From contig JASLXG010000025.1 in NCBI GenBank assembly GCA_030740435.1, positions 1-33,757 on the forward strand: DNA of 33,757 bases, read 5' to 3'. Shown in pieces: positions 732 through 17,126 of the stretch (the stretch's first letter is position 1; the number at the start of each line of letters is the position of its first letter). The notes beneath the pieces are model-generated. The model worked only from the letters and a program-made list of their open reading frames with translations. It did no database searches and was not told the DNA's origin. Made by a program: the position numbers and the translations under genes. Source of the DNA: Alphaproteobacteria bacterium (lineage in GTDB: Bacteria; Pseudomonadota; Alphaproteobacteria; UBA2966).

Positions 732-1490
732 ATGACACGGAACACACCCGGACCCAAGCCCGTGGCGCTGGTGGTGGGAGCCGGCGACTACATCGGCGCC
801 GCCATTGCCAGGCGCTTTGCCGCCGGCGGATTCCAAGTTTGCTTGGGGCGGCGCAACGGCGACAAGCTGGCGCCGCTGGTCGACGAGATCGAGGCGGCCG
901 GCGGCACGGCCCATCCCTTCGGCTTCGATGCCCGCCAGGAGGACCAGACCGAGGCTCTGTTCGCCCGCATCGAGGCCGATATCGGCCCCCTCGAGGTGGT
1001 CATCTTCAATGTCGGCGGCAACGTCTATTTCCCCATCCGCGAGACCACTTCGCGAGTTTTCCGCAAGGTTTGGGAGATGGCCACCTTCGCCGGCTTCCTC
1101 TCGGGGCGCGAGGCCGCCAAATACATGGTGCCGCGCGGCCGGGGCGCCATCTTCTTCACCGGCGCCACCGCCAGCCTGCGCGGCGGCATAGGTTTCTCCG
1201 CCTTCGCCGCCGGCAAGTTCGGTCTGCGCGCCCTGGCCCAGTCGATGGCCCGCGAATTGGGGCCCGAGAACATACACGTGGCGCATCTGGTGATCGATGC
1301 CGGCGTCGATACCCAATGGGTGCGTGAACGCATCAAGGACCGCGATGGCGAGGACGCCCTGGAAAATCTCCAACCCGACCAGCTCATCGACCCCGCCTCT
1401 ATCGGCGAGGCTTATTGGCAGCTCTACCAGCAGCCACGTGACTGCTGGACCCACGAGCTCGACGTCCGCCCCTACATCGAGAATTGGTAG
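732..1490 (+). CDS. SDR-family protein lacking the canonical catalytic Tyr
   Basis: 252 residues with a Rossmann fold. The N-terminal nucleotide-binding motif is VVGAGDYIG (variant GxxxGxG), and NVGGNV replaces the usual NNAG. In the catalytic region (around residues 135-160) the sequence reads GATASLRGG...FSAFAAGKFGLRAL. The Lys is present, but Phe stands where the YxxxK Tyr should be and no well-placed Ser is evident. From memory, a group of SDRs annotated as oxidoreductases shares this Phe, so it need not be a damaged copy. Reaction and substrate are unknown. It is followed after 31 bp by the nitronate monooxygenase and is probably co-transcribed from the promoter at 665-693. Confidence 0.85.
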   Translation: MTRNTPGPKPVALVVGAGDYIGAAIARRFAAGGFQVCLGRRNGDKLAPLVDEIEAAGGTAHPFGFDARQEDQTEALFARIEADIGPLEVVIFNVGGNVYFPIRETTSRVFRKVWEMATFAGFLSGREAAKYMVPRGRGAIFFTGATASLRGGIGFSAFAAGKFGLRALAQSMARELGPENIHVAHLVIDAGVDTQWVRERIKDRDGEDALENLQPDQLIDPASIGEAYWQLYQQPRDCWTHELDVRPYIENW

Positions 1491-1521
1491 TTTTCCCTCA
1501 GGTTAGCAAAGGATCCCCTAA

Positions 1522-2487
1522 ATGAGTCTCCCCCCCGTATTTGCTCCGCTCCGCCTTCCCGTGGTGGCCGCGCCGCTTTTTATCATTTCCAATCCCGACC
1601 TGGTGATCGCCCAGTGCCAGGCCGGTATCGTCGGCTCCTTTCCCGCCCTCAACGCCCGGCCCATCGAGAAGCTCGACGAATGGCTGGGCCGGATCGGCGA
1701 GGAGCTGGGGCGCTACAACCAGGAACACCCCGACGCTCCCGCCGCGCCCTATGCCGTCAACCAGATCGTGCACAAATCCAACGACCGCCTGATGCAGGAC
1801 CTGGACCTTTGCGTCAAACACGAGGTGCCGATCGTTATCACCTCGCTGGGTGCCCGGCCCGAGCTCAACGACGCCGTCCATTCCTACGGCGGCATCGTGC
1901 TGCACGACGTCATCAACGACCGCTTCGCCCACAAAGCGGTCGAGAAAGGTGCCGACGGCCTGATCACCGTGGCAGCCGGGGCCGGCGGCCACGGCGGCAC
2001 GCTATCGCCTTTCGCCCTGGTGCAGGAGATCCGCGAATGGTTCGATGGGCCGTTGCTGTTGGCCGGCTCCATCGCCACCGGCTCGGCCATTCTGGCGGCC
2101 CAGGCCATGGGCGCCGATCTGGCCTACATCGGCTCACCCTTCGTGGCCACCGCCGAGGCCCGGGCCTCCCAGGTCTACAAGCAGATGATCGTCGACAGCA
2201 CCATGGACGACATCGTCTATACCAACCTCTTCAGCGGCGTCCACGGCAACTACCTCAAGCCCTCGATCAAGGCGGCCGGCCTCGATCCCGACGATCTGCC
2301 GGAAAGCGATCCCTCGAAGATGAGCTTCGGCTCCGGCGGCAACGCCGCGGCCAAGGCCTGGAAGGACATCTGGAGCTGCGGCCAGGGCATTGGCGCCGTC
2401 AAGGACATCCCCCCGGCCGGCCAGCGGGTGGCCGAATTGGCGCAGCAGTACGACGAGGCCAAGGCCCGAATCGAAGCGCTCGGCTGA
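1522..2487 (+). CDS. Nitronate monooxygenase (2-nitropropane dioxygenase family)
   Basis: 321 residues, a TIM-barrel FMN enzyme that oxidises alkyl nitronates to carbonyl compounds and nitrite using O2. Visible features: the N-terminal barrel start with VVAAPLFIISNPDLVIAQCQAGIVGSFP, a central IVLHDVINDRFA strand-helix unit, GADGLITVAAGAGGHGG containing the catalytic-position His of the GGHGG motif, then LLLAGSIATGSAILAAQAMGADLAYIGSPF for FMN phosphate binding. The C-terminal lid carries SGVHGNYLKPSI. Second gene after the SDR, likely the same transcript and the same HxlR control. It ends 3 bp before the stop of the convergent EAL gene. The true substrate may not be a nitroalkane. Confidence 0.9.
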   Translation: MSLPPVFAPLRLPVVAAPLFIISNPDLVIAQCQAGIVGSFPALNARPIEKLDEWLGRIGEELGRYNQEHPDAPAAPYAVNQIVHKSNDRLMQDLDLCVKHEVPIVITSLGARPELNDAVHSYGGIVLHDVINDRFAHKAVEKGADGLITVAAGAGGHGGTLSPFALVQEIREWFDGPLLLAGSIATGSAILAAQAMGADLAYIGSPFVATAEARASQVYKQMIVDSTMDDIVYTNLFSGVHGNYLKPSIKAAGLDPDDLPESDPSKMSFGSGGNAAAKAWKDIWSCGQGIGAVKDIPPAGQRVAELAQQYDEAKARIEALG

Positions 2488-2490
2488 GCC

Positions 2491-4128
2491 TTATTCGTCC
2501 GGCAGATCGAAGGAATGGATATCGCCGTCGGGCTTGCCGAAGTACCAGCCCTGGCCGAGATCCACGCCGCATTCGGAGAGAAACTTGGCCAGCGGCTCGT
2601 CCTCGACCATCTCGGCGATGGTCTCGATACCGGTCTGCTTGCAGAGCGTCGCCATCGAGGCCAGGAAGGCCTTGCCCTTGTCCGTGGCGTAGGCCCGCTT
2701 GACCACGGGGCCGTCGAATTTCACGGTGTCGATGTCGAAGCTGTTGAGATAATCGAAGCTGGCGGCGCCGGCGCCGAAATCGTCGAGCGAGACCTTGTAG
2801 CCCTTGGTGCGCAAGCCCTGGATGGTGATGTTGGTGCCCTCGAGATCCTCGATGCCGGCCGATTCGGTGATCTCGAACATCAGTCTGTCGCTGATGTCGC
2901 CGACCCTGTCGAGGAGGTCATGGAGCTTGGCGATGAAATCCGGATCGACGATGGAGTTGCCCGAGACGTTGACCGCGATGGAGGGGATCTTGCGCGGCTG
3001 CTCCTTGATGAACTGGATGGCCTTCTTGGCCACGGCATAGTCGAAGTCGGGGATGATGCCGACCTCTTCGGCCATGGTGATGAGCTCGTAAGGGGATGCC
3101 GTGCCGTCGCCGCCGCGAAAGCGCGTCAGTGCTTCGAAGTGGTGGATGACGCCGGTCTTGAGGTCGCATATGGGCATGTAGACCAGATCGAAGTGCCCGG
3201 TGCTGCAGACCCGCTTGAAGGAGGCCACCATTTTTGCCGTCTCGTGGACGCGCCGTTGCAGCATGCCGTCGAGGCTGTTGCCGCCGCCGACGTTGGCCGG
3301 ATCCTTGCTGAACTCGCGCATGGTGTAAACCAGCGCCCGGGTCATCTCGGCCTCGCTGAGCGCCGAGACGTCGGCATCCACTGTCGTCGACTGGGTAGTG
3401 AGGCCGACGCCGTCGGGATCGAGGTCGGCGGTTGAGGCGGCGATTTCCTGGCTGATCATTTCCGGCGTCACGTCCTCGCCGTGGACCAGGCTGAAGTTTT
3501 CGTCGTCGATGCGGCCGGCGGTGTCCTTGCCCAGCGAGTGTTCTTTGATGATGGTGCCGATGGTGGCCATCATGGTTTCCTGGTTTTCGCTGGTTAGCTT
3601 GCCTTTCAGCTCCTCCATGTTGTCGATCTTGATCATCGAGACCTTGGGCTTGCCACCGGCCGCCTGGTAGGACTTGATGCGGTCGGCGGCGACGCTGGCG
3701 AAGGATCCCTCGCTCAACACGTCGGCGGCCTCGTCGCGGTCTTCGGCCCGGCGCTGCTGTATCGGTACACGCCTGGGCGCCACTTTCACGGCCAGGAAGA
3801 AATGGTCGTCGAAATCGGGGGTGCGATAGCCCGAGAGGGAAACCTCGGTAACCGTTTCGTTGGCGAGGGCCATGCGGGCCGAAGGCTCGTCGATGCGGCC
3901 GCTGGAGACGGTGACGTTGAGAAGCTCGGCGATGAGGTCGCGGTCACGTTCGTCGATGAAGGGCAGGAAGGGCTGGCCCATCAGATCCGCCGGGCCGACG
4001 CCCAGCAGCCTGTCGGTGGCGCCGACCGAGAAGACGATCTTGTGTTCGCGGTCGAGCTCGAACAGCATGTCGGCCCAGCAAAACGCCATGCCGGCAAAGC
4101 GCATGGTCATCATGGCCTTGTCGTTCAT
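2491..4128 (-). CDS. PAS - degenerate GGDEF - EAL protein, probable c-di-GMP phosphodiesterase
   Basis: 545 residues, no transmembrane segment, so a cytoplasmic signalling protein. Residues about 15-120 look PAS-like. Residues about 160-270 resemble a GGDEF fold, but the signature is RIDDENFSLVH, so cyclase activity is not expected. The C-terminal EAL domain (about 290-540) keeps the expected catalytic set: FEALTRFR, NVSGNS, FEITES, LDDFGAG, KFDG, IAEMVED and GQGWYFGKP. It should therefore hydrolyse c-di-GMP. The gene stands alone, convergent with the nitronate monooxygenase gene and divergent from the NTF2-like/acyl-CoA synthetase operon across 145 bp. Confidence 0.9.
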   Translation of the reverse strand: MNDKAMMTMRFAGMAFCWADMLFELDREHKIVFSVGATDRLLGVGPADLMGQPFLPFIDERDRDLIAELLNVTVSSGRIDEPSARMALANETVTEVSLSGYRTPDFDDHFFLAVKVAPRRVPIQQRRAEDRDEAADVLSEGSFASVAADRIKSYQAAGGKPKVSMIKIDNMEELKGKLTSENQETMMATIGTIIKEHSLGKDTAGRIDDENFSLVHGEDVTPEMISQEIAASTADLDPDGVGLTTQSTTVDADVSALSEAEMTRALVYTMREFSKDPANVGGGNSLDGMLQRRVHETAKMVASFKRVCSTGHFDLVYMPICDLKTGVIHHFEALTRFRGGDGTASPYELITMAEEVGIIPDFDYAVAKKAIQFIKEQPRKIPSIAVNVSGNSIVDPDFIAKLHDLLDRVGDISDRLMFEITESAGIEDLEGTNITIQGLRTKGYKVSLDDFGAGAASFDYLNSFDIDTVKFDGPVVKRAYATDKGKAFLASMATLCKQTGIETIAEMVEDEPLAKFLSECGVDLGQGWYFGKPDGDIHSFDLPDE

Positions 4129-4273: not shown

Positions 4274-4648
4274 ATGACCGAACACGAGGAAATTGCCGCC
4301 GCATTGCAGCTCTATTTCGATGGGCTATACGAGGGCGATCTGGAGGAATTCGGGCGTATCTTCCACGAGAACTCCCATCTCTACTTCCATGCCGACGGCG
4401 TCGTCAACGACTGGCCGCGCCAGGACTACTTCGAGCGCATCGCCCGGCGGGACTCTCCAGCCAGCCAGAATCTGGCACGGCGCGACCGCATCGTCTTCAT
4501 CGACGTCTCCGATGACGGCACGGCCTATGCCAAGGTCGAATGCCAGATGCCGCCGCGCTATTTCACCGATTATCTGACGCTGCTGCGCGACGGCGGTCAG
4601 TGGCGCATCATTTCCAAGACCTTCAGCGCCGTGGTGCGCGAGGACTAA
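4274..4648 (+). CDS. NTF2-like (SnoaL / lumazine-binding-like) protein
   Basis: 124 residues with the cone-shaped NTF2 fold pattern: an N-terminal helix IAAALQLYFDGLYEGDLEEFGRIFHENSHLYF, a central DWPRQDYFERIARRDSPAS segment, then strands RIVFIDVSDDGTAYAKVECQ and YFTDYLTLLRDGGQWRIISKTFSAVV. The family includes polyketide cyclases, isomerases and binding proteins with no common reaction. The acyl-CoA synthetase start is only 2 bp after its stop, so the two are probably translationally coupled. It may help process the acid or CoA ester handled by the neighbours, but this is inferred only from context. Confidence 0.82.
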   Translation: MTEHEEIAAALQLYFDGLYEGDLEEFGRIFHENSHLYFHADGVVNDWPRQDYFERIARRDSPASQNLARRDRIVFIDVSDDGTAYAKVECQMPPRYFTDYLTLLRDGGQWRIISKTFSAVVRED

Positions 4649-4650
4649 CC

Positions 4651-6528
4651 ATGACCTTCGCCTGCGCGACACCGGTCGAGAGCGAGGCCGATCTCGAGGC
4701 GCTGGAGCGCCAATCTTTCGCCGAGGCGGCCGCTGTGCGCAGTACCTACGAGATCCTGGAACGCAGCGCCCGGGCCCACCCCGACGGCGTGGCCATCAGC
4801 TTCCTGCCCACGGGCGAGGTCGAGGCCGAGGCGGTGCGCATTACCTACAGACAGCTTTTTGCCCGCGTCACCCAGGCGGCCAACATGTTCCATGCCCTGG
4901 GCGTCGGCCCCAAGGACGCCGTCTCGTTCCTGCTGCCGCTGCTGCCGCAAGGCCATTTCACCTTCTGGGGAGCCTGCACGGCCGGCATCGTCAATCCCAT
5001 CAATTTCCTCCTCTCAGCGGAGAACGTGGCCGATCTGATGAACGCCGCCGGGGCCAAAGTGGTGGTGGCGCTGGGGCCCCATCCGGCACTCGACATCTGG
5101 CAGAAGATCGAAGCCATCCGCGATCAGGTGCCCAGCCTCGAGGCCGTACTCACCGTCGGCCAGCCGGTCGAGGGCGAGGGCATATTCGATTTCGACACCC
5201 TGTTAGCCGAACAGCCCGCCGACCACTTGGTCAGCGGCCGCGATATCCAGTCCGAAGACGTCGCCGCCTATTTCCACACCGGCGGCACCACCGGGGCGCC
5301 CAAGCTGGCCCAACACCTGCAACGCAACCACGTCTACACCGCCTGGGCCAGCCCGCGGATGTACGGCCTCAACGAGGAGACCCGGGTGATCAACGGCCTG
5401 CCGCTGTTTCACGTCGCCGGGCCGCTGAATTTCGGTATCGCGGTGCTGGGCGCCGGCGGCGAGATCATCCTGCCCAGTCCGGCCGGTATGCGTAACCCGG
5501 ACATCGTGGCCAACCACTGGAAACTGGTGGAAAAGTACCGCCCCAACTTCATCGGCGGCATTCCCACTTCGCTGGCCGCCATCCTCAACGTGCCGGTGGG
5601 CGAGAGCGATATCAGCTCGGTCAGCTGCTGCATGACCGGCGGCGCGCCGCTGCCGCGCGAGATGGCGCGCAGCTTCGAGGAACGCTTCGGCGTGCCCATC
5701 CACGAGGTCTACGGCATGACCGAGTGTTCCGGCGTCATCGCCATCACGCCCACCAGCCGGCCGCGCAAGCCGGGCTATTCGGGTCTGCGGCTGCCGCACG
5801 AGCGGATCGAGGTGCGCGCCATGAACAGCGACGGCAGCGTGGGCCATGCCCTGGCGGCCGGGGAGAGCGGTGTGGTCGTGATCAGCGGGCCGCACGTCTT
5901 CGCCGGCTACCGCAGCACCGAGCACAACGCCGGCGTCTTCACCGACGACGGCTGGCTGATCAGCGGCGATCTCGGCCACCTCGACGACGAGGGATTCCTG
6001 GCCATTACCGGCCGGGCCAAGGATCTGATCATACGCGGCGGCCACAACATCGACCCCTCGATCATCGAACAGGCGCTGGACGGTCATCCGGCGGTCGAAA
6101 TGTGCGCCGCCGTGGGCATGCCGGACGCCTACGCCGGCGAGTTGCCGGTGGCCTACGTGACCCTCAATCCCGGCGCCGCGGCGACGGCCGAAGAGCTCGA
6201 CGACTACCTGGCCGAACGCATCTCCGAACGCCCGGCCAAGCCCAAGGCCATCTTCATCGTCGACCAGTTGCCGCTGACCGCGATCGCCAAGATCTTCAAG
6301 CCCGAGCTGCGCCAGGACGCCGCCCGGCGGGTTTTTTCCGCGCTTCTGCAGCCCTTGTCTGGCGACGGCTTCGAGGTCGAAGTCGAGGTCGGCCATGAGA
6401 AGAAACGCGGGATGGTGGCGACTATCAAGCTGGCCGGTGGCGAGGAGGCCGGCCGTCCTGCCGCCGAGGCCCAGGTAGCAGAGGTCTTCGTCGACTTCGC
6501 GGTGCCTCACGACGTCATTTGGAAGTAG
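4651..6528 (+). CDS. Acyl-CoA synthetase (AMP-forming, ANL superfamily)
   Basis: 625 residues. Activates a carboxylic acid to its adenylate and then to a CoA thioester. Core motifs in order: the ATP/AMP P-loop YFHTGGTTGAPKLAQ (about residues 208-222), EVYGMTECSG (adenylate motif), DGWLISGDLGHLDDEGFLAITGR (hinge region) and RGGHNIDPSIIE. The C-terminal catalytic Lys is plausibly in AIAKIFKPELR. About 60 residues follow that Lys (VFSALLQPLSGDGFEVEVEV...), an extension beyond many family members. The ATG at 4651 was chosen because it lies 2 bp after the NTF2-like stop; longer in-frame starts would run inside that gene. Substrate is unknown; neighbours suggest an alicyclic, aromatic or branched acid. 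Confidence 0.92.
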   Translation: MTFACATPVESEADLEALERQSFAEAAAVRSTYEILERSARAHPDGVAISFLPTGEVEAEAVRITYRQLFARVTQAANMFHALGVGPKDAVSFLLPLLPQGHFTFWGACTAGIVNPINFLLSAENVADLMNAAGAKVVVALGPHPALDIWQKIEAIRDQVPSLEAVLTVGQPVEGEGIFDFDTLLAEQPADHLVSGRDIQSEDVAAYFHTGGTTGAPKLAQHLQRNHVYTAWASPRMYGLNEETRVINGLPLFHVAGPLNFGIAVLGAGGEIILPSPAGMRNPDIVANHWKLVEKYRPNFIGGIPTSLAAILNVPVGESDISSVSCCMTGGAPLPREMARSFEERFGVPIHEVYGMTECSGVIAITPTSRPRKPGYSGLRLPHERIEVRAMNSDGSVGHALAAGESGVVVISGPHVFAGYRSTEHNAGVFTDDGWLISGDLGHLDDEGFLAITGRAKDLIIRGGHNIDPSIIEQALDGHPAVEMCAAVGMPDAYAGELPVAYVTLNPGAAATAEELDDYLAERISERPAKPKAIFIVDQLPLTAIAKIFKPELRQDAARRVFSALLQPLSGDGFEVEVEVGHEKKRGMVATIKLAGGEEAGRPAAEAQVAEVFVDFAVPHDVIWK

Positions 6529-6532
6529 CGCC

Positions 6533-7288
6533 GTGGCCGCCAACCTCATCGACATGAGCGGCCGTGTGGTGCTGATCACCGGCGGCAGCCGTGGCCTGGG
6601 GCGGGCCATGGCGCTGGGATTCGCCGAGGCCGGGGCCGACCTCGCCATCGCCAGCCGCAAGCTCGAGTCTTGCCAGGCCACGGCCGCCGAAATCGAGGCG
6701 CTGGGCCGCCAGGCTTTTGTCCAGGCCTGCCACGTGGGTTACTGGGACCAGATCGATGCCTTGGTCGAGGCCGTCTACGGCCACTACGGCAAGGTCGACG
6801 TGCTGATCAACAACGCCGGCATGTCGCCCCATTACGACCGCCCCGTGGACATCAGCGAGGCGCTCTACGACAAGGTGCTGGAAGTCAACCTCAAGGGGGC
6901 CTTCCGGGCCTGCGCCAACGTCGGCCAGCGCATGTTGGAAGCCGGTGGCGGTGCCATCATCAACATCTCCAGCGCCGCCGCCATCCGGCCGCGCAAGGAC
7001 ATCATCACCTATGCCGCCGCCAAGGCCGGCCTCAATGCCATGACCGAAGCCTTCGCCGACGCCTACGGGCCCAGCGTGCGGGTCAACGCCATCATGCCTG
7101 GGCCGTTCCTGACCGACATCTCCAAGGCCTGGGACATGGCGGCCTTCGCCGAACGTGCCCGCACCTCGATCGCGCTGGGCCGCGGCGGCCAGGCCGAGGA
7201 GATCGTCGGCGCGGCGCTTTATCTGGCTTCCGACCAGGCCAGCTACACCACCGCGGCGATCCTCAAGATCGACGGCGGATCGCTTTAG
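6533..7288 (+). CDS. SDR-family oxidoreductase (classical, FabG-like)
   Basis: 251 residues with a GTG start 4 bp after the acyl-CoA synthetase stop. All classical SDR elements are visible: TGGSRGLG cofactor motif near the N-terminus, NNAG, Ser in NISSAAA, and YAAAK 13 residues later, then PGPF after the active site. It ends in the typical SYTTAAILKIDGG. It should be an NAD(P)-dependent alcohol/ketone oxidoreductase. ASRK after the second strand replaces an acidic NAD-selecting residue, which leans to NADP but is not decisive. It is the last gene of the NTF2-like/synthetase operon and may oxidise a hydroxyacyl intermediate. Confidence 0.92.
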   Translation: MAANLIDMSGRVVLITGGSRGLGRAMALGFAEAGADLAIASRKLESCQATAAEIEALGRQAFVQACHVGYWDQIDALVEAVYGHYGKVDVLINNAGMSPHYDRPVDISEALYDKVLEVNLKGAFRACANVGQRMLEAGGGAIINISSAAAIRPRKDIITYAAAKAGLNAMTEAFADAYGPSVRVNAIMPGPFLTDISKAWDMAAFAERARTSIALGRGGQAEEIVGAALYLASDQASYTTAAILKIDGGSL

Positions 7289-7371
7289 GGGCCCTAAACC
7301 AAAGGTCTAAAAGCCCCAAATACCCTCGTGGTTGATTGTTTTCAGGCGCCTGCAGGCCGATCTTCCGGCTC

Positions 7372-8496
7372 ATGCACGGGCCAATTCACATTTTCGCAAC
7401 ATTGCGCCAATCCCTGGTCTGGGACCTGCCGACCAGGCTCTTTCATTGGGGCCTGGTGGCTTGCGTCGCCATCGCCGCCGGAAGCGGTTTCCTGGCCCCC
7501 GAATGGTGGCTGGACTGGCATGCCGTGGCCGGCTACGGCGTCGGGATATTGCTTGCCTTCCGCCTGGCCTGGGGGTTCGTCGGCGGTCGCTACAGCCGGT
7601 TCGCCGCGCTGATCCTGGCGCCCGGCCGTCTCGTTCGCCACCTGCGTCAGGTTGCGGCGAGGCGGCCGCAACACAGCGTCGGCCACGATCCCGCCGGCAG
7701 CTGGATGATTCTAGCGCTGTTGGCGCTGTTGGGCGCGATCGTCGTCAGCGGATTGATCGCCCTGGGCGGGCAGGAGGGCCAAGGCCCGCTGGCGTTTCTG
7801 CTTTCGTTCGCGGCCGGCCGGGTGGCCATGACCTGGCACGAGGTTCTGGCCTTTTTGCTGCTGGCGGCCGTCGGGCTGCATGTCTCGGGGGTATTGTTCG
7901 AGAGCCGCCTGTCCAAGGTTCCGCTGGTGGCCGCCATGATCCACGGTCGCAAACGGGTGGCGGCGGAAGACGCCGACCCGGGCGGCCCGCGTGCCCGGCG
8001 CGGGGCGCTGGTTTTCGCCACCGCGGCCGGTTTGCTACTGGCCGGCGGCGGCCTGCTTGCCGGGCTGCCGGCCAGCGGCTGGCAACCGCTGGCCACGCCC
8101 GAGCGCTACGCCGGCGAATGCGGCGATTGCCACCACGCCCACCATCCCAGCCTGAGGACGGCAGCCGACTGGCGGCAACTGATGGCCGGCCTGGAGGACC
8201 ATTTCGGCGAGGACGCCAGCCTCGATCCGGCCGATGTGGCCGGGATCGGCGGCTTCCTCGTGGCCAACGCCGCCGAGCGCTTCGATACCGAGGCTGCCAA
8301 CCTGATGGGAGGCGCCCGCGCAGACAGCATCACCAGCGGCGCGGCCTGGAAGGCACGCCATGAAGGCCTGACTGATGCGCTGTTCAAATCCAAACCCGTG
8401 GGCTCGCCGGCCAACTGCGACGCCTGCCACCGCGATGCCGCCGGCGGCCGTTTCGCCGACAGCGCCATCGAACTTCCCAAGGAGAATGTGAAATGA
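7372..8496 (+). CDS. Cytochrome b561-type membrane protein fused to a dihaem cytochrome c (DHC) domain
   Basis: 374 residues from the ATG at 7372; a TTG at 7336 would add 12, and neither has a strong ribosome site. Residues 1-200 form a four-helix cytochrome b with His in RLFHWGL, DWHAVAGY, TWHEVL and GLHVSGV, enough to ligate two b haems. A fifth hydrophobic segment (RRGALVFATAAGLLLAGGG, about 207-230) carries the chain back to the periplasm. The C-terminal domain has two c-type sites, CGDCH (250-254) and CDACH (349-353), and resembles the separate DHC at 8918. It likely passes quinol-derived electrons to SHP or DHC. Its stop overlaps the SHP start (ATGA). Confidence 0.88.
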   Translation: MHGPIHIFATLRQSLVWDLPTRLFHWGLVACVAIAAGSGFLAPEWWLDWHAVAGYGVGILLAFRLAWGFVGGRYSRFAALILAPGRLVRHLRQVAARRPQHSVGHDPAGSWMILALLALLGAIVVSGLIALGGQEGQGPLAFLLSFAAGRVAMTWHEVLAFLLLAAVGLHVSGVLFESRLSKVPLVAAMIHGRKRVAAEDADPGGPRARRGALVFATAAGLLLAGGGLLAGLPASGWQPLATPERYAGECGDCHHAHHPSLRTAADWRQLMAGLEDHFGEDASLDPADVAGIGGFLVANAAERFDTEAANLMGGARADSITSGAAWKARHEGLTDALFKSKPVGSPANCDACHRDAAGGRFADSAIELPKENVK

Positions 8497-8906
8497 TCAG
8501 GAAATCCGCGGTCCGGATTGTGGCCGGGGCCGTTCTGGCCCTGGTTCCGAGTGGCTCTGCCGTGCTGGCTGGCGCTGCCCTGGACAGCGCCTTGACCCAG
8601 TACCGCGAGCAGAGCGGCCAGGACTTCTCGGCCGATCGGGGCCGCGCCTTCTTTCTCGCCCGCCCCGGCAGCGGCAAGGCCGAGACGCCATCGTGCACCT
8701 CGTGCCACGGCTCCTCGCCGCTGGCGGGCGGCCAGACCCGGGCCGGCAAGCCCATCGAGCCGATGGCGCTGTCGCAGACCCCGGAGCGCTACGCCGAGGC
8801 CAAAAAACGGGAAAAGTGGTTCCGGCGCAACTGCAAGAGCGTGCTGGGCCGGGCCTGCAGTGCCCAGGAGAAGGGCGATTTCCTCACCTTCATGCGTAGC
8901 CAATAG
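8493..8906 (+). CDS. SHP-type (DUF1924) monohaem cytochrome c
   Basis: 137 residues with an N-terminal signal peptide (about 1-28) and one haem site, CTSCH at 68-72. It resembles Sphaeroides haem protein, a high-spin cytochrome c whose haem has an Asn ligand that leaves on reduction so O2 or NO can bind; SHP is known to be encoded with a DHC and a cytochrome b. The candidate Asn is N113 in WFRRNC. The Cys pair C114 and C122 (NCKSVLGRAC) fits the disulfide described near that ligand. Preceded by AAGGAG and overlapping the upstream stop by 4 bp. Periplasmic. Physiological role of the family is unsettled. Confidence 0.85.
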   Translation: MIRKSAVRIVAGAVLALVPSGSAVLAGAALDSALTQYREQSGQDFSADRGRAFFLARPGSGKAETPSCTSCHGSSPLAGGQTRAGKPIEPMALSQTPERYAEAKKREKWFRRNCKSVLGRACSAQEKGDFLTFMRSQ

Positions 8907-8917
8907 GGAGATATGAA

Positions 8918-9388
8918 ATGACTGCCAAGACGTATATTCTTGCCGCCGCCGCGCTGGTCCTGTGGTCCGCCAGTGCAGGGGCGGACGAGCGCTATCGGCC
9001 GGTCAGCGACGAACGGGTGCGCCGGCTCTGTGGCGAATGCCACATGGTTTTCCAGCCCCAAATGCTGCCCAAACGCTCGTGGCACAAACTGATGGACGGC
9101 CTGGCCGATCACTTCGGCGAGGATGCCAGTCTGGAACCCGGCGAAAGCGCCCATATCCGCGGCTATCTAGTGGCCCACGCCGCCGATGCCCGCTGGCTGG
9201 ACGGGCGTTTTATGCGCGGCATCGCGGACAACGTCACGCCGCTGCGTATCAGCGAGACGCCGCACTGGCTGCACGAACACGACAAGGAGCTTTCGCCCAG
9301 CGCCTACGACGACCCCAAGGTCAAGTCCAAGGCCAACTGCCCGGCCTGCCACCGGCGCGCCGCGGAGGGCGATTACGATGACGACTAG
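8918..9388 (+). CDS. Dihaem cytochrome c (DHC family)
   Basis: 156 residues with a signal peptide (cleavage near ASAGA-D, residue 22) and two haem sites, CGECH (38-42) and CPACH (141-145). Between them lies WHKLMDGLADHFGEDASLEPGE..IRGYLVAHAAD, nearly superimposable on the C-terminal domain of the b561 fusion at 7372. The two are paralogues. In characterised SHP systems DHC is the electron donor to SHP. Starts 11 bp after the SHP stop with AGGGAGA as ribosome site. The acidic tail DYDDD is odd but short. Confidence 0.88.
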   Translation: MTAKTYILAAAALVLWSASAGADERYRPVSDERVRRLCGECHMVFQPQMLPKRSWHKLMDGLADHFGEDASLEPGESAHIRGYLVAHAADARWLDGRFMRGIADNVTPLRISETPHWLHEHDKELSPSAYDDPKVKSKANCPACHRRAAEGDYDDD

Positions 9389-9389
9389 G

Positions 9390-9433
9390 AATTCCCGATA
9401 GCGCCAAGAATCGCCGGGCATCGGTCGGGAATT
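9390..9433. repeat. Inverted repeat downstream of the cytochrome genes
   Basis: AATTCCCGA (9390-9398) and TCGGGAATT (9425-9433) are perfect 9-bp complements separated by 26 bp. No T-tract follows, so it is not a convincing intrinsic terminator. It could be an mRNA-stabilising hairpin or an operator in front of the LuxR-type gene. Confidence 0.4.
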
Positions 9434-9452
9434 TGTGCTCAGCTAGCGCCTG

Positions 9453-9992
9453 ATGGCAGGCTACGGGCAGGGCAGGCGGGGTAACTGGCGGGCAACGGTG
9501 TTGCTGCTGGCGCTGCTGGTCGTGGCATTTTGCGAGGTCTTCCTGGTCATCGACGTGATGGCCGACATCTTCTACATCGACATCGCCACGCCTTGGCTCG
9601 ATCACGACATCATCGAATTGGTGGCGGTCGTCGCGCTGGGGGCCTCGCTCATCGTCTTGAGCCTCGAGTTGCGCCGCCTGCTGCGCGAACGCCGCCGCTT
9701 CGAAGCCACGTTGAAGGCAGCCTCGGGCGAGCTTTTCCAGGTCATCACGGCCAAGTTCGACGACTGGGGCCTGACGGCATCGGAACGCGACATCGCGCTT
9801 TTGCTCATCAAGGGCCTGGCGCTGCAGGAAATCGCCGACCTGCGGGCCACCCGGCCGGGCACCGTCAAGAGCCAGTCGAACGCCGTCTATCGCAAGGCCG
9901 GCGTCAGCGGTCGCCACGAGCTGGTGGCTTATTTCGTCGAGGATCTGCTGGCCGGCGAGCAGTTGATCGTGGAGCCGGCGCAGGATGCTTGA
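9453..9992 (+). CDS. Membrane-anchored LuxR-type HTH protein
   Basis: 179 residues. Two hydrophobic segments at the N-terminus (about 14-36 and 52-72) are followed by a basic helix LRRLLRERRRFEATLKAASGEL, possibly coiled coil. A LuxR/GerE-type HTH then follows: LTASERDIALLLIKGLALQEIADLRATRPGTVKSQSNAVYRKAGVSGRHELVAYF. There is no receiver domain, so it is not a standard response regulator; activity may be controlled through the membrane part. It lies 64 bp after the DHC gene on the same strand and may regulate the cytochrome operon or belong to it. Target and signal unknown. Confidence 0.85.
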   Translation: MAGYGQGRRGNWRATVLLLALLVVAFCEVFLVIDVMADIFYIDIATPWLDHDIIELVAVVALGASLIVLSLELRRLLRERRRFEATLKAASGELFQVITAKFDDWGLTASERDIALLLIKGLALQEIADLRATRPGTVKSQSNAVYRKAGVSGRHELVAYFVEDLLAGEQLIVEPAQDA

Positions 9993-14706: not shown

Positions 14707-14768
14707 GGGCCGTGACCGGCTGAGAAATGCGGGCTAAAGTGCCCCCGGAAAATCCAGCGAGGCGAAAG

Positions 14769-15749
14769 ATGTCCGAATCCCTGGCCCAGGCCGCACAGTC
14801 CCCTGGCGGCCCAAGCGACAAGATCGCTTCCGTCGAGGCCATCGTCGATGGCCTGGGCAGCGTCGGCTACATCGCCTCGCAGCAGATCGCCACGGCGCTT
14901 TTCGTCGCCGAGCACCTGCAGAAGCCGATCCTGGTCGAAGGCTCGGCCGGGGTGGGCAAGACAGAACTGGCGCTCTCGGCGGCGGCCTGGCTGGAGCTGC
15001 CACTGATCCGCATGCAGTGCTACGAAGGCCTCGACGAATCCAAGGCGCTATACGAATGGAAGTACGGCAAGCAGTTGCTGTACACCCAAATCCTCAAGGA
15101 CAAGGTGGGTGGCACCCTGGCCGATGCCCCCGACCTCGATGCCGCCATGGCCCGGCTGCACGGCTTTGGCGATCTGTTTTTCTCGGAGCAGTTTCTCGAG
15201 CCCCGGCCGCTCTTGAAGGCGTTGCGCCAAGAGGGCGGCGCGGTGCTGTTGATCGACGAGGTCGACAAGTCCGACGAGGAGTTCGAGGCCTTTTTGCTGG
15301 AAGTGCTGTCGGCCTTCCAGGTCTCGATCCCCGAGATCGGCACCGTCGTCGCCACCGTGCCGCCGCTGGTCTTTCTCACCTCCAACAACGTGCGCGAAAT
15401 GGGCGATGCCCTGAAGCGGCGCTGTCTGCACCTGCACATTCCGCTACCCGATGCCCGCCTCGAACAACGCATCGTGGCCTCGCGGGTGCCCGACATCGAG
15501 GCGCGGCTCAACCGCCAGCTGGTCGAGTTCGTACAGTTGCTCAGGGCCGAGGAACTCAAGAAACTGCCCTCGATCTCCGAGACCATCGACTGGGCCCGGG
15601 TGCTGCTGCTGCTGCATGCCGAGGCCCTGGAGATCGGCCTGGTGCGCGACACCATGAACGTGCTGCTGAAATTCGAACAAGACATCGCCGCCATGGCGCC
15701 CCGTGTTCCGGAGATGGTGCGCAAGACGGCGGAGCACTTGCCGGGCTGA
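14769..15749 (+). CDS. MoxR/CoxD-type AAA+ ATPase
   Basis: About 326 residues from the ATG at 14769 (GGCGAAAG just upstream); an ATG at 14727 would add 14. Walker A is EGSAGVGKTEL, Walker B is VLLIDEVDKSDEEFEAFLLEVL, sensor 1 is FLTSNNVREM, and the MoxR block MQCYEGLDESKALYEWKYGKQLL is close to CoxD. MoxR ATPases act with VWA partners as chaperones that insert metal cofactors or remodel complexes; CoxD works on the Mo-Cu site of CO dehydrogenase. The VWA partner follows after 12 bp. No CO dehydrogenase structural genes are present, so the client protein is unknown. Confidence 0.92.
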   Translation: MSESLAQAAQSPGGPSDKIASVEAIVDGLGSVGYIASQQIATALFVAEHLQKPILVEGSAGVGKTELALSAAAWLELPLIRMQCYEGLDESKALYEWKYGKQLLYTQILKDKVGGTLADAPDLDAAMARLHGFGDLFFSEQFLEPRPLLKALRQEGGAVLLIDEVDKSDEEFEAFLLEVLSAFQVSIPEIGTVVATVPPLVFLTSNNVREMGDALKRRCLHLHIPLPDARLEQRIVASRVPDIEARLNRQLVEFVQLLRAEELKKLPSISETIDWARVLLLLHAEALEIGLVRDTMNVLLKFEQDIAAMAPRVPEMVRKTAEHLPG

Positions 15750-15761
15750 GCCGGGGCGCTC

Positions 15762-17126
15762 GTGCAGCAGACCATCGAAAACTTCCTGCGTGCGCTGAGG
15801 GCGGCCGACATCCGGGTTTCGCCGGCCGAGGCCATCGATGCCCACCGCACCATCGACGTGGTCGGATATGGCCAGCGCCAGCTGCTCAAGGACGCGCTCT
15901 GCGTCACCCTGGCCAAGACGGCGGACGAGGTCGGGCGCTATGAGGAATGCTTCGATCTTTTCTTCAGCCGCGACGAGTTTCGCGCCGACGCTGACGGTGA
16001 AGCCGGGGCCGGAACCGAGGGCGAGGGGCTAAGCGAAGCCGAAGCGGAAATGCTGGCCGACCAGGCCCTGGCGCAGATGGTCATGGGGGGCGACGGCGAG
16101 GGCCTGGCGCGGGAGATGGACCGGGCTGCCAACCAGGTCGGTGTGAGCAATATCCAGTCTTTCATCCAGCGCGGCAACTTTGCCCGGCGCATCCTCGACC
16201 AGATGGGATTGCGCGATCTGGAGCGGCTGATCGCCGAGCTCAACCGCCGGGGCGACGAGGCCGCGGCGGAACTGGTCGAGCGCCTGGAGGCCGGACGGCG
16301 CATGCTGCTCGACGAGGCGCGCGAGTTCGTCGAACGCCAGTTCGAGCTCTATGCCCGCAATGCCGGCCAGAACCTGCGCCAGGAATTTCTCGCCGAGACC
16401 CGGCTCTCGGCCGTCGAACAACGCGATTTCGAGGTCATGCACCGCCTGGTGCGCAGGCTGGCCAAGCGCCTGGCCACGCGCTACAGCCGGCGCCGCCACC
16501 GGGCCCGGCGCGGCCGCCTCGACGTACGCCGTACGCTGCGCCGCTCCATGGCGCATGACGGCATTCCCTTCGAGACGGTGTGGAAGCAGATCAAGATCGA
16601 ACGCCCCCGCATCGTCGTCTTGTGCGACGTCTCGCGCTCGGTGGCGGCGGCGGCGCGGTTCCTGCTCTTGTTCCTCTACAGCCTCAACGAGGTCATCGCC
16701 GAGCTCCATGCCTTCGCCTTCTCCGACCGCTTGATCGACGTGAGCGAGATCATGGAAACGGAAAACGTCGAGACCGCCATTCCGGCGGTGCTTGAAGAGA
16801 TCGGCTATCGTTCAACGGATTACGGCCAGGCCCTGGTCGATTTCTGCGACCTCCACCTCGAGCGGCTGGACCGGCGAACGACCGTGATCGTATTGGGCGA
16901 CGGGCGCTCCAACTTCACCGATCCCCGCCTCGACCTGATGCGCACGTTGCATGACCGGAGTAAAGCCGTGATCTGGCTTAACCCCGAGCCCGAGGGTTTC
17001 TGGGGGCTGGGCGATTCCGAGATGCACCGCTATCGCCGCTTCTGCCACGTCGCCCGCACCTGCAACACCGTGCAGCACCTGGAAGACGTCATCGACGGCG
17101 TGCTCAAGAGCTACATGCGGGGCTAG
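15762..17126 (+). CDS. CoxE-type VWA domain protein
   Basis: 454 residues, GTG start at 15762. The N-terminal half is helical (FLRALRAADIRVSPAEAIDA.. typical of CoxE), followed by an acidic linker (about 85-105) and a basic stretch RYSRRRHRARRGRLDVRRTLR preceding the VWA domain. The MIDAS motif is CDVSRS (DxSxS), with a later Thr/Asp region DYGQALVDFCDL and VIVLGDGRSNFTDPR. It ends in the WLNPEPEGFWGLGDSEM block. It is the expected partner of the MoxR ATPase upstream, binding the client protein through the metal site. Last gene of the run beginning with hyuA; convergent with the DUF6765-like gene 25 bp away. Confidence 0.9.
   Translation: MQQTIENFLRALRAADIRVSPAEAIDAHRTIDVVGYGQRQLLKDALCVTLAKTADEVGRYEECFDLFFSRDEFRADADGEAGAGTEGEGLSEAEAEMLADQALAQMVMGGDGEGLAREMDRAANQVGVSNIQSFIQRGNFARRILDQMGLRDLERLIAELNRRGDEAAAELVERLEAGRRMLLDEAREFVERQFELYARNAGQNLRQEFLAETRLSAVEQRDFEVMHRLVRRLAKRLATRYSRRRHRARRGRLDVRRTLRRSMAHDGIPFETVWKQIKIERPRIVVLCDVSRSVAAAARFLLLFLYSLNEVIAELHAFAFSDRLIDVSEIMETENVETAIPAVLEEIGYRSTDYGQALVDFCDLHLERLDRRTTVIVLGDGRSNFTDPRLDLMRTLHDRSKAVIWLNPEPEGFWGLGDSEMHRYRRFCHVARTCNTVQHLEDVIDGVLKSYMRG

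Follow-up and report, generated by a model that had tools for sequence, protein, structure and literature searches.

A known sphaeroides haem protein operon in an alphaproteobacterium, with a probable membrane-bound LuxR-type regulator of its own

Meyer, Kyndt and Cusanovich (2010; PMC2909971) single out the sphaeroides haem protein (SHP) as the sole haem protein of the c type with known O2 binding. A cluster encoding SHP and companion cytochromes, followed by a LuxR-type gene, lies in a 33,757-nucleotide stretch of alphaproteobacterial DNA (the whole of which is referred to here as the window) and raises two questions: whether its cytochromes depart from the SHP operons already described, and what the fourth gene might do for them. 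The features of the locus are as follows.

7297..7338, plus strand: bipartite element AACCAAAGGTCTA-N20-GGTTGATTG, a putative operator or promoter for the genes that follow, common to five LuxR-bearing SHP operons.
7372..8496, plus strand: CytB/mDHC fusion P0001, 374 aa; Pfam Ni_hydr_CYTB and DHC, five hydrophobic helices, two CXXCH; aligned with 13 other fusions.
8107..8454, plus strand: DHC domain of the fusion P0001; PF09626, 98.5 bits in a whole-genome profile search; Foldseek top match 2fw5.
8493..8906, plus strand: SHP (DUF1924) P0002, 137 aa; one CXXCH; PF09086; phmmer alignment with 1dw0.
8918..9388, plus strand: soluble diheme cytochrome c (sDHC) P0003, 156 aa; PF09626; phmmer alignment with 2fw5.
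9390..9433, plus strand: inverted repeat AATTCCCGA-N26-TCGGGAATT between the sDHC and LuxR genes; possible RNA hairpin.
9453..9992, plus strand: predicted membrane-anchored LuxR/GerE-type regulator P0004, 179 aa; GerE, hydropathy, HTH model, clade of five.

The four open reading frames at 7372-9992 encode, all on the plus strand, a fusion of cytochrome b561 and DHC, SHP, a free DHC and a LuxR-type protein, with the fusion and SHP frames overlapping by 4 bases. Its neighbours code for an SDR, for an AMP-binding enzyme and for a hydantoinase A. Neither a kinase gene nor a receiver gene is among them, whereas the two-component type of SHP operon is marked by adjoining kinase and response regulator genes. 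Elsewhere in the window (14727-17123), an AAA ATPase gene is followed by one for a VWA CoxE-like protein, a pair of the kind that accompanies CO dehydrogenase genes.

Profile searches for DHC, DUF1924 and cytochrome b561, the check that the initial annotation had proposed, matched all three families and identified the second domain of the fusion as DHC. Within P0001, Ni_hydr_CYTB covers residues 16-192 (E 1e-24) and DHC residues 246-361 (E 7e-27), and a sequence search matched the C-terminus to the DHC of solved structure 3u99 (3e-19). In an alignment of 14 fusions, three histidines of the b561 domain (50, 156 and 170) never vary and a fourth, His 25, hardly does; these four conserved histidines, judged from the alignment, fit two b haems. 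Both DHC haem sites are invariant across the same 14 sequences, as are His 277 and 330, the likely sixth ligands of the DHC. Hydropathy analysis places four helices in the b561 domain and a fifth (212-230) ahead of the DHC, an arrangement that would put the DHC on the periplasmic side, where c-haem is attached. In a Foldseek search, the AlphaFold model of the fusion gave matches with weak E-values (3e-3) to the formate dehydrogenase N b subunit and to the DHC of R. sphaeroides, the DHC part of the model having a pLDDT below 70.

The second protein, P0002, matches Pfam DUF1924 (PF09086; E 6e-33) and, in a sequence search of solved structures, the R. sphaeroides SHP structure 1dw0 (6e-29). It combines one c-haem site (CXXCH at 68) with the conserved distal residues of an SHP: Trp109, Asn113, Cys114 and Cys122 are invariant in an alignment of nine SHPs, with Asn113 as the haem ligand and both Trp109 and the Cys114-Cys122 pair conserved. 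The Trp, Asn and Cys pair are the residues discussed for O2-binding SHPs, and ligand release on reduction and O2 binding are known for the SHPs of R. sphaeroides and A. vinosum (PMC2909971). The free DHC, P0003, matches Pfam DHC (E 6e-35) and the R. sphaeroides DHC structure 2fw5 (8e-30); in sequence searches the DHC sequences of the window also match the solved structures 2fwt and 3u99. Across the three cytochrome genes there are five CXXCH sites for c-haem, two in the fusion (250 and 349), one in SHP (68) and two in sDHC (38 and 141). The Pfam matches, these five motifs and the four b561 histidines bear out the gene identities and haem counts first assigned to the locus.

The companion cytochrome b and DHC genes expected of an SHP operon are present in the window, and their arrangement has a precedent. 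The order CytB/mDHC-SHP-sDHC has been described for R. sphaeroides and other Rhodobacteraceae, and the CytB-DHC fusion is also named in Rhodoferax, Campylobacter, Arcobacter, Sulfurospirillum and Wolinella (PMC2909971). The window fusion is a chimera of this Rhodobacteraceae type, with b561 and DHC in one chain encoded by the first gene and with SHP and sDHC following it. A set of 91 SHP loci was selected for resemblance to the query, and proportions within it cannot be read as population frequencies. The fusion is present in 23 of these loci, 12 of them alphaproteobacterial; CytB is separate in 58, is absent from the stretch in 9 and is joined to SHP in a single chimera. The alphaproteobacterial fusions split from the beta- and gammaproteobacterial ones in a tree (support 100/100). 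The CytB/SHP chimera is encoded at positions 4572-5669 of locus L153, as published for Rhodospirillum rubrum.

The cluster in the window is an SHP operon of the known kind, in the form typical of alphaproteobacteria, the chain being assigned to the R. sphaeroides type by sequence, not spectra. The fusion and the second free DHC had initially been read as a departure from known SHP systems; that claim falls, both with the published R. sphaeroides arrangement and with the 23 of 91 loci, and the fusion is common among alphaproteobacterial SHP loci (12 found), a finding that the initial annotation had itself named as refuting. The electron path from quinol to the periplasm that was proposed alongside it coincides with the published model, in which electrons pass from quinol to CytB, the DHCs and finally SHP, the last step having been demonstrated in R. 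sphaeroides (PMC2909971).

Relative to that account, what looks new is the fourth gene, with a regulator class and a DNA signature of its own. The GerE profile matches residues 107-160 of P0004 at 20.9 bits, just under the cut-off of 23.5, and the orthologue in genome G002 at 25.1 bits, over it; the NCBIfam LIC13292-family model scores 66.7 bits over the C-terminal 96 residues, below its curated cut-off of 200 bits. Hydropathy analysis gives two helices (15-33 and 53-71), and no receiver domain is present. A structural model of P0004, built from two sequences only, has a moderate mean pLDDT of 68.5, and its predicted HTH (approximately residues 107-165) matches NarL/LuxR domains such as those of DosR, VraR and LiaR (E about 6e-3). 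The domain scores of P0004 and its G002 orthologue, together with this fold match, identify the protein as bearing a GerE-type HTH.

Orthologues of P0004 (55-57% identity) follow sDHC in four other alphaproteobacterial genomes: G002, of the same family as the window genome; G370 and G208, of other families; and L020 (JAJRRU010000035.1), from the named collection. Across 385 genomes of the class, every match of at least 55% identity, found in G002, G370 and G208, lies directly 3' of an SHP-sDHC pair, and P0004 and its four orthologues form one clade (99/97). Of the SHP loci in the named collection, the remaining 79 lack the LuxR gene, and no further members of the clade were found in the orders of G370 and G208, the cassette being patchy there (1 of 15 genomes in the first order, 1 of 22 in the second). 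One genome of the same genus as the window has no SHP, and in the five genomes that carry the LuxR-bearing cassette it is flanked by unrelated genes. In locus L020, an extra CytB-sDHC pair (6942-8176) separates the SHP operon from the LuxR gene, and this extra sDHC is far closer to the window sDHC (5e-54) than is the first sDHC of L020 (1e-23).

The regulation described at SHP operons consists of kinase/response-regulator pairs (SK1 with Orf1; SK2; SK3) or of nothing (PMC2909971). Relatives of the window operon that lack the LuxR gene carry other regulators, namely a PepSY protein, an OmpR-type regulator and a kinase in L103 and an NtrC-type regulator with a kinase in L021, so that one type of regulator looks to have been swapped for another at the same kind of operon. 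P0004 is probably a dedicated, membrane-bound and autoregulatory one-component regulator that stands in place of such pairs. In L103, from the same-order genome G011, the PepSY, OmpR-type response regulator and kinase genes are divergent from the SHP operon that they adjoin (1264-3640, minus strand), and by position they could correspond to Orf1, the response regulator and SK1 of the published SK1 operons.

A second feature shared by the LuxR-bearing operons is a bipartite element, AACCAWAGTTCTA-N20/21-GGTTGATTG, located just before the fusion gene in all five. Genome-wide searches allowing up to 3 mismatches returned exactly one such element in each of the five genomes, each at the SHP operon, and a reversed-pattern control gave 0 sites in the same genomes. 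Among 90 longer SHP loci, the best matches have 0-3 mismatches in the four with the LuxR gene and 4-9 in the LuxR-less loci, the latter being the range of shuffled DNA. Because the consensus was built post hoc, by inspection, from the same five loci, perfect scores there mean little, and it is the uniqueness of the element and the LuxR-less controls that carry weight. A further contrast comes from the L020 fusion, which groups with that of L021 (99/97): L020 has both the LuxR gene and the element and L021 has neither, indicating that the element goes with the regulator more closely than with the cytochrome lineage. A single 4-mismatch match in the LuxR-less locus L095 lies 5 kb off and on the opposite strand, and was treated as chance.

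This distribution suggests, for a pairing seen in five genomes only, that the element is the single predicted target site of P0004 and that the operon may thereby form a dedicated switch. The initial proposal that the LuxR protein might be a membrane-bound regulator of the chain gains support from the conserved linkage and from this private upstream site. Between the sDHC and LuxR genes, the inverted repeat at 9390-9433 has perfect 9-base arms and a 26-base loop (fold z -2.2). G002 has a different hairpin in a similar place and G370 a weaker one; a conserved hairpin was dropped as a candidate, as the z-score of -1.9 in G002 falls to -0.2 in G370 and +0.5 in G208.

We consider it likely, on balance, that the locus is a known SHP operon equipped with a dedicated membrane-bound one-component regulator. 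In such a cassette, quinol would reduce both b haems in CytB, and electrons would move across to the periplasmic mDHC of the fusion, from there to the soluble sDHC and on to SHP, whose haem would drop its Asn ligand when reduced and then bind O2 (or NO), leading to chemistry of an oxygenase or NO-dioxygenase type. In the R. sphaeroides literature, SHP is reduced by DHC and binds O2, and NO dioxygenase activity has been reported. P0004, with two predicted membrane helices and a putative cytoplasmic NarL/LuxR-type DNA-binding domain, would most likely read the redox or occupancy state of the membrane chain and act on the single bipartite site before the operon, so controlling its own expression. 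The second helix is predicted to run toward the HTH, so a change in the membrane would be able to reach the DNA-binding part. Binding of P0004 to the element is inferred, as are the sign of the regulation, which may be activation or repression, and the signal, for which quinone state, CytB, O2 and NO are candidates; with one gene, one site and no kinase, one-component regulation of its own operon is the simplest account of P0004.

Distant relatives of P0004 extend the association with cytochrome b561 beyond SHP. In a sample of the class, 21 SHP-free places hold distant two-helix GerE proteins, and 9 of these places have a b561 gene alongside, as against 0 of 9 for ordinary GerE hits; on plasmids of Thioclava (NZ_CP135444.1) and Sulfitobacter (NZ_CP025811.1) the gene order is PepSY, cytochrome b, LuxR. 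A phylum-wide sample, searched for more members of the clade, yielded only a group of twelve genomes of one family (L165-L176) with a two-helix LuxR protein, 38-45% identical, and no b561 or SHP nearby; since such relatives exist, the link between regulator and cytochrome is recurrent, not universal. In both loci read of that group, L165 and L171, a small secreted protein precedes the LuxR gene. Loci with b561 genes beside two-helix LuxR-type genes, and with no SHP or DHC, are L138, L139, L140, L141, L144, L145, L146, L148, L149, L160 and L163, a PepSY gene coming first on two plasmids. A literature search for LuxR with b561 or PepSY, or for LIC13292, found no paper in the library covered, and the pair is possibly undescribed so far. 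A tentative extension, which we think has the odds against it, is that the two-helix LuxR protein could be a direct redox reporter of its partner b561, with the electron or quinol state sensed in the membrane and passed to one private promoter without a kinase; if so, the SHP cassette would exemplify a broader partnership between b561 and membrane LuxR proteins.

Other explanations account for parts of these observations. The element might be a core promoter, or might serve another regulator or a sigma factor, with the LuxR gene as a passenger on a mobile cassette; the five operons do have unrelated neighbours and a patchy distribution, down to their absence from a same-genus genome, as for a transferred block. 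A general promoter would, however, recur elsewhere, and each of the five genomes has the element only once; as a sigma-70 promoter it was rejected, a scan finding none and the spacing of 20-21 being unlike that of ordinary sigma-70 promoters. L020, moreover, combines element and LuxR gene with a fusion that belongs to the lineage of L021, in which both are missing. We regard the passenger explanation as unlikely, if still a serious competitor.

It is more improbable that the whole cassette is a sensory device, in which SHP would act as an O2 or NO sensor or scavenger and its ligand state would be relayed back to the LuxR protein by way of the DHCs and CytB, with no oxygenase route. The regulator lies within the cassette, has one private site and has membrane LuxR relatives beside b561 genes, all of which such a device would explain; yet most SHP operons use other regulators, that of R. 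sphaeroides uses none, and contact between CytB and P0004 is without support. That a new SHP arrangement arose here by fusing cytochrome b to DHC is scarcely credible: the fusion is real, but both it and the gene order are published for R. sphaeroides and other Rhodobacteraceae, and the census found it repeatedly (23 of 91 loci).

The proposed pairing of a known SHP operon with a dedicated one-component regulator matters in part because the published survey took regulators as clues to SHP function (PMC2909971), and P0004 belongs to a class absent from its list. Since each genome has just one predicted target site, the inducer of the operon, and hence the purpose of SHP, becomes testable, and the repeated occurrence of two-helix LuxR proteins next to b561 genes offers a lead for kinase-free sensing of membrane electron flow.

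Set against known systems, the window operon and that of R. sphaeroides share three genes, their order, the fusion, the sixth ligand Asn and, close to the haem of SHP, a Trp and a Cys-Cys pair; the R. sphaeroides operon has no regulatory gene, whereas that of the window has a membrane LuxR gene at its 3' end and a specific upstream DNA element. Operon-linked regulation of SHP, as predicted for the window, is shared with the SK1, SK2 and SK3 operons (PMC2909971), but where the latter use a kinase and a response regulator, the window has the membrane part and the DNA-binding part in one protein. P0004 resembles NarL/LuxR (GerE) proteins such as DosR, VraR and LiaR in its predicted HTH fold and differs from them in having two membrane helices in place of a receiver or autoinducer domain. 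The Rhodobacterales plasmid sets of Thioclava and Sulfitobacter likewise place a two-helix LuxR-type protein directly 3' of a cytochrome b gene, although they have no SHP or DHC and their LuxR proteins are less than 50% identical to P0004.
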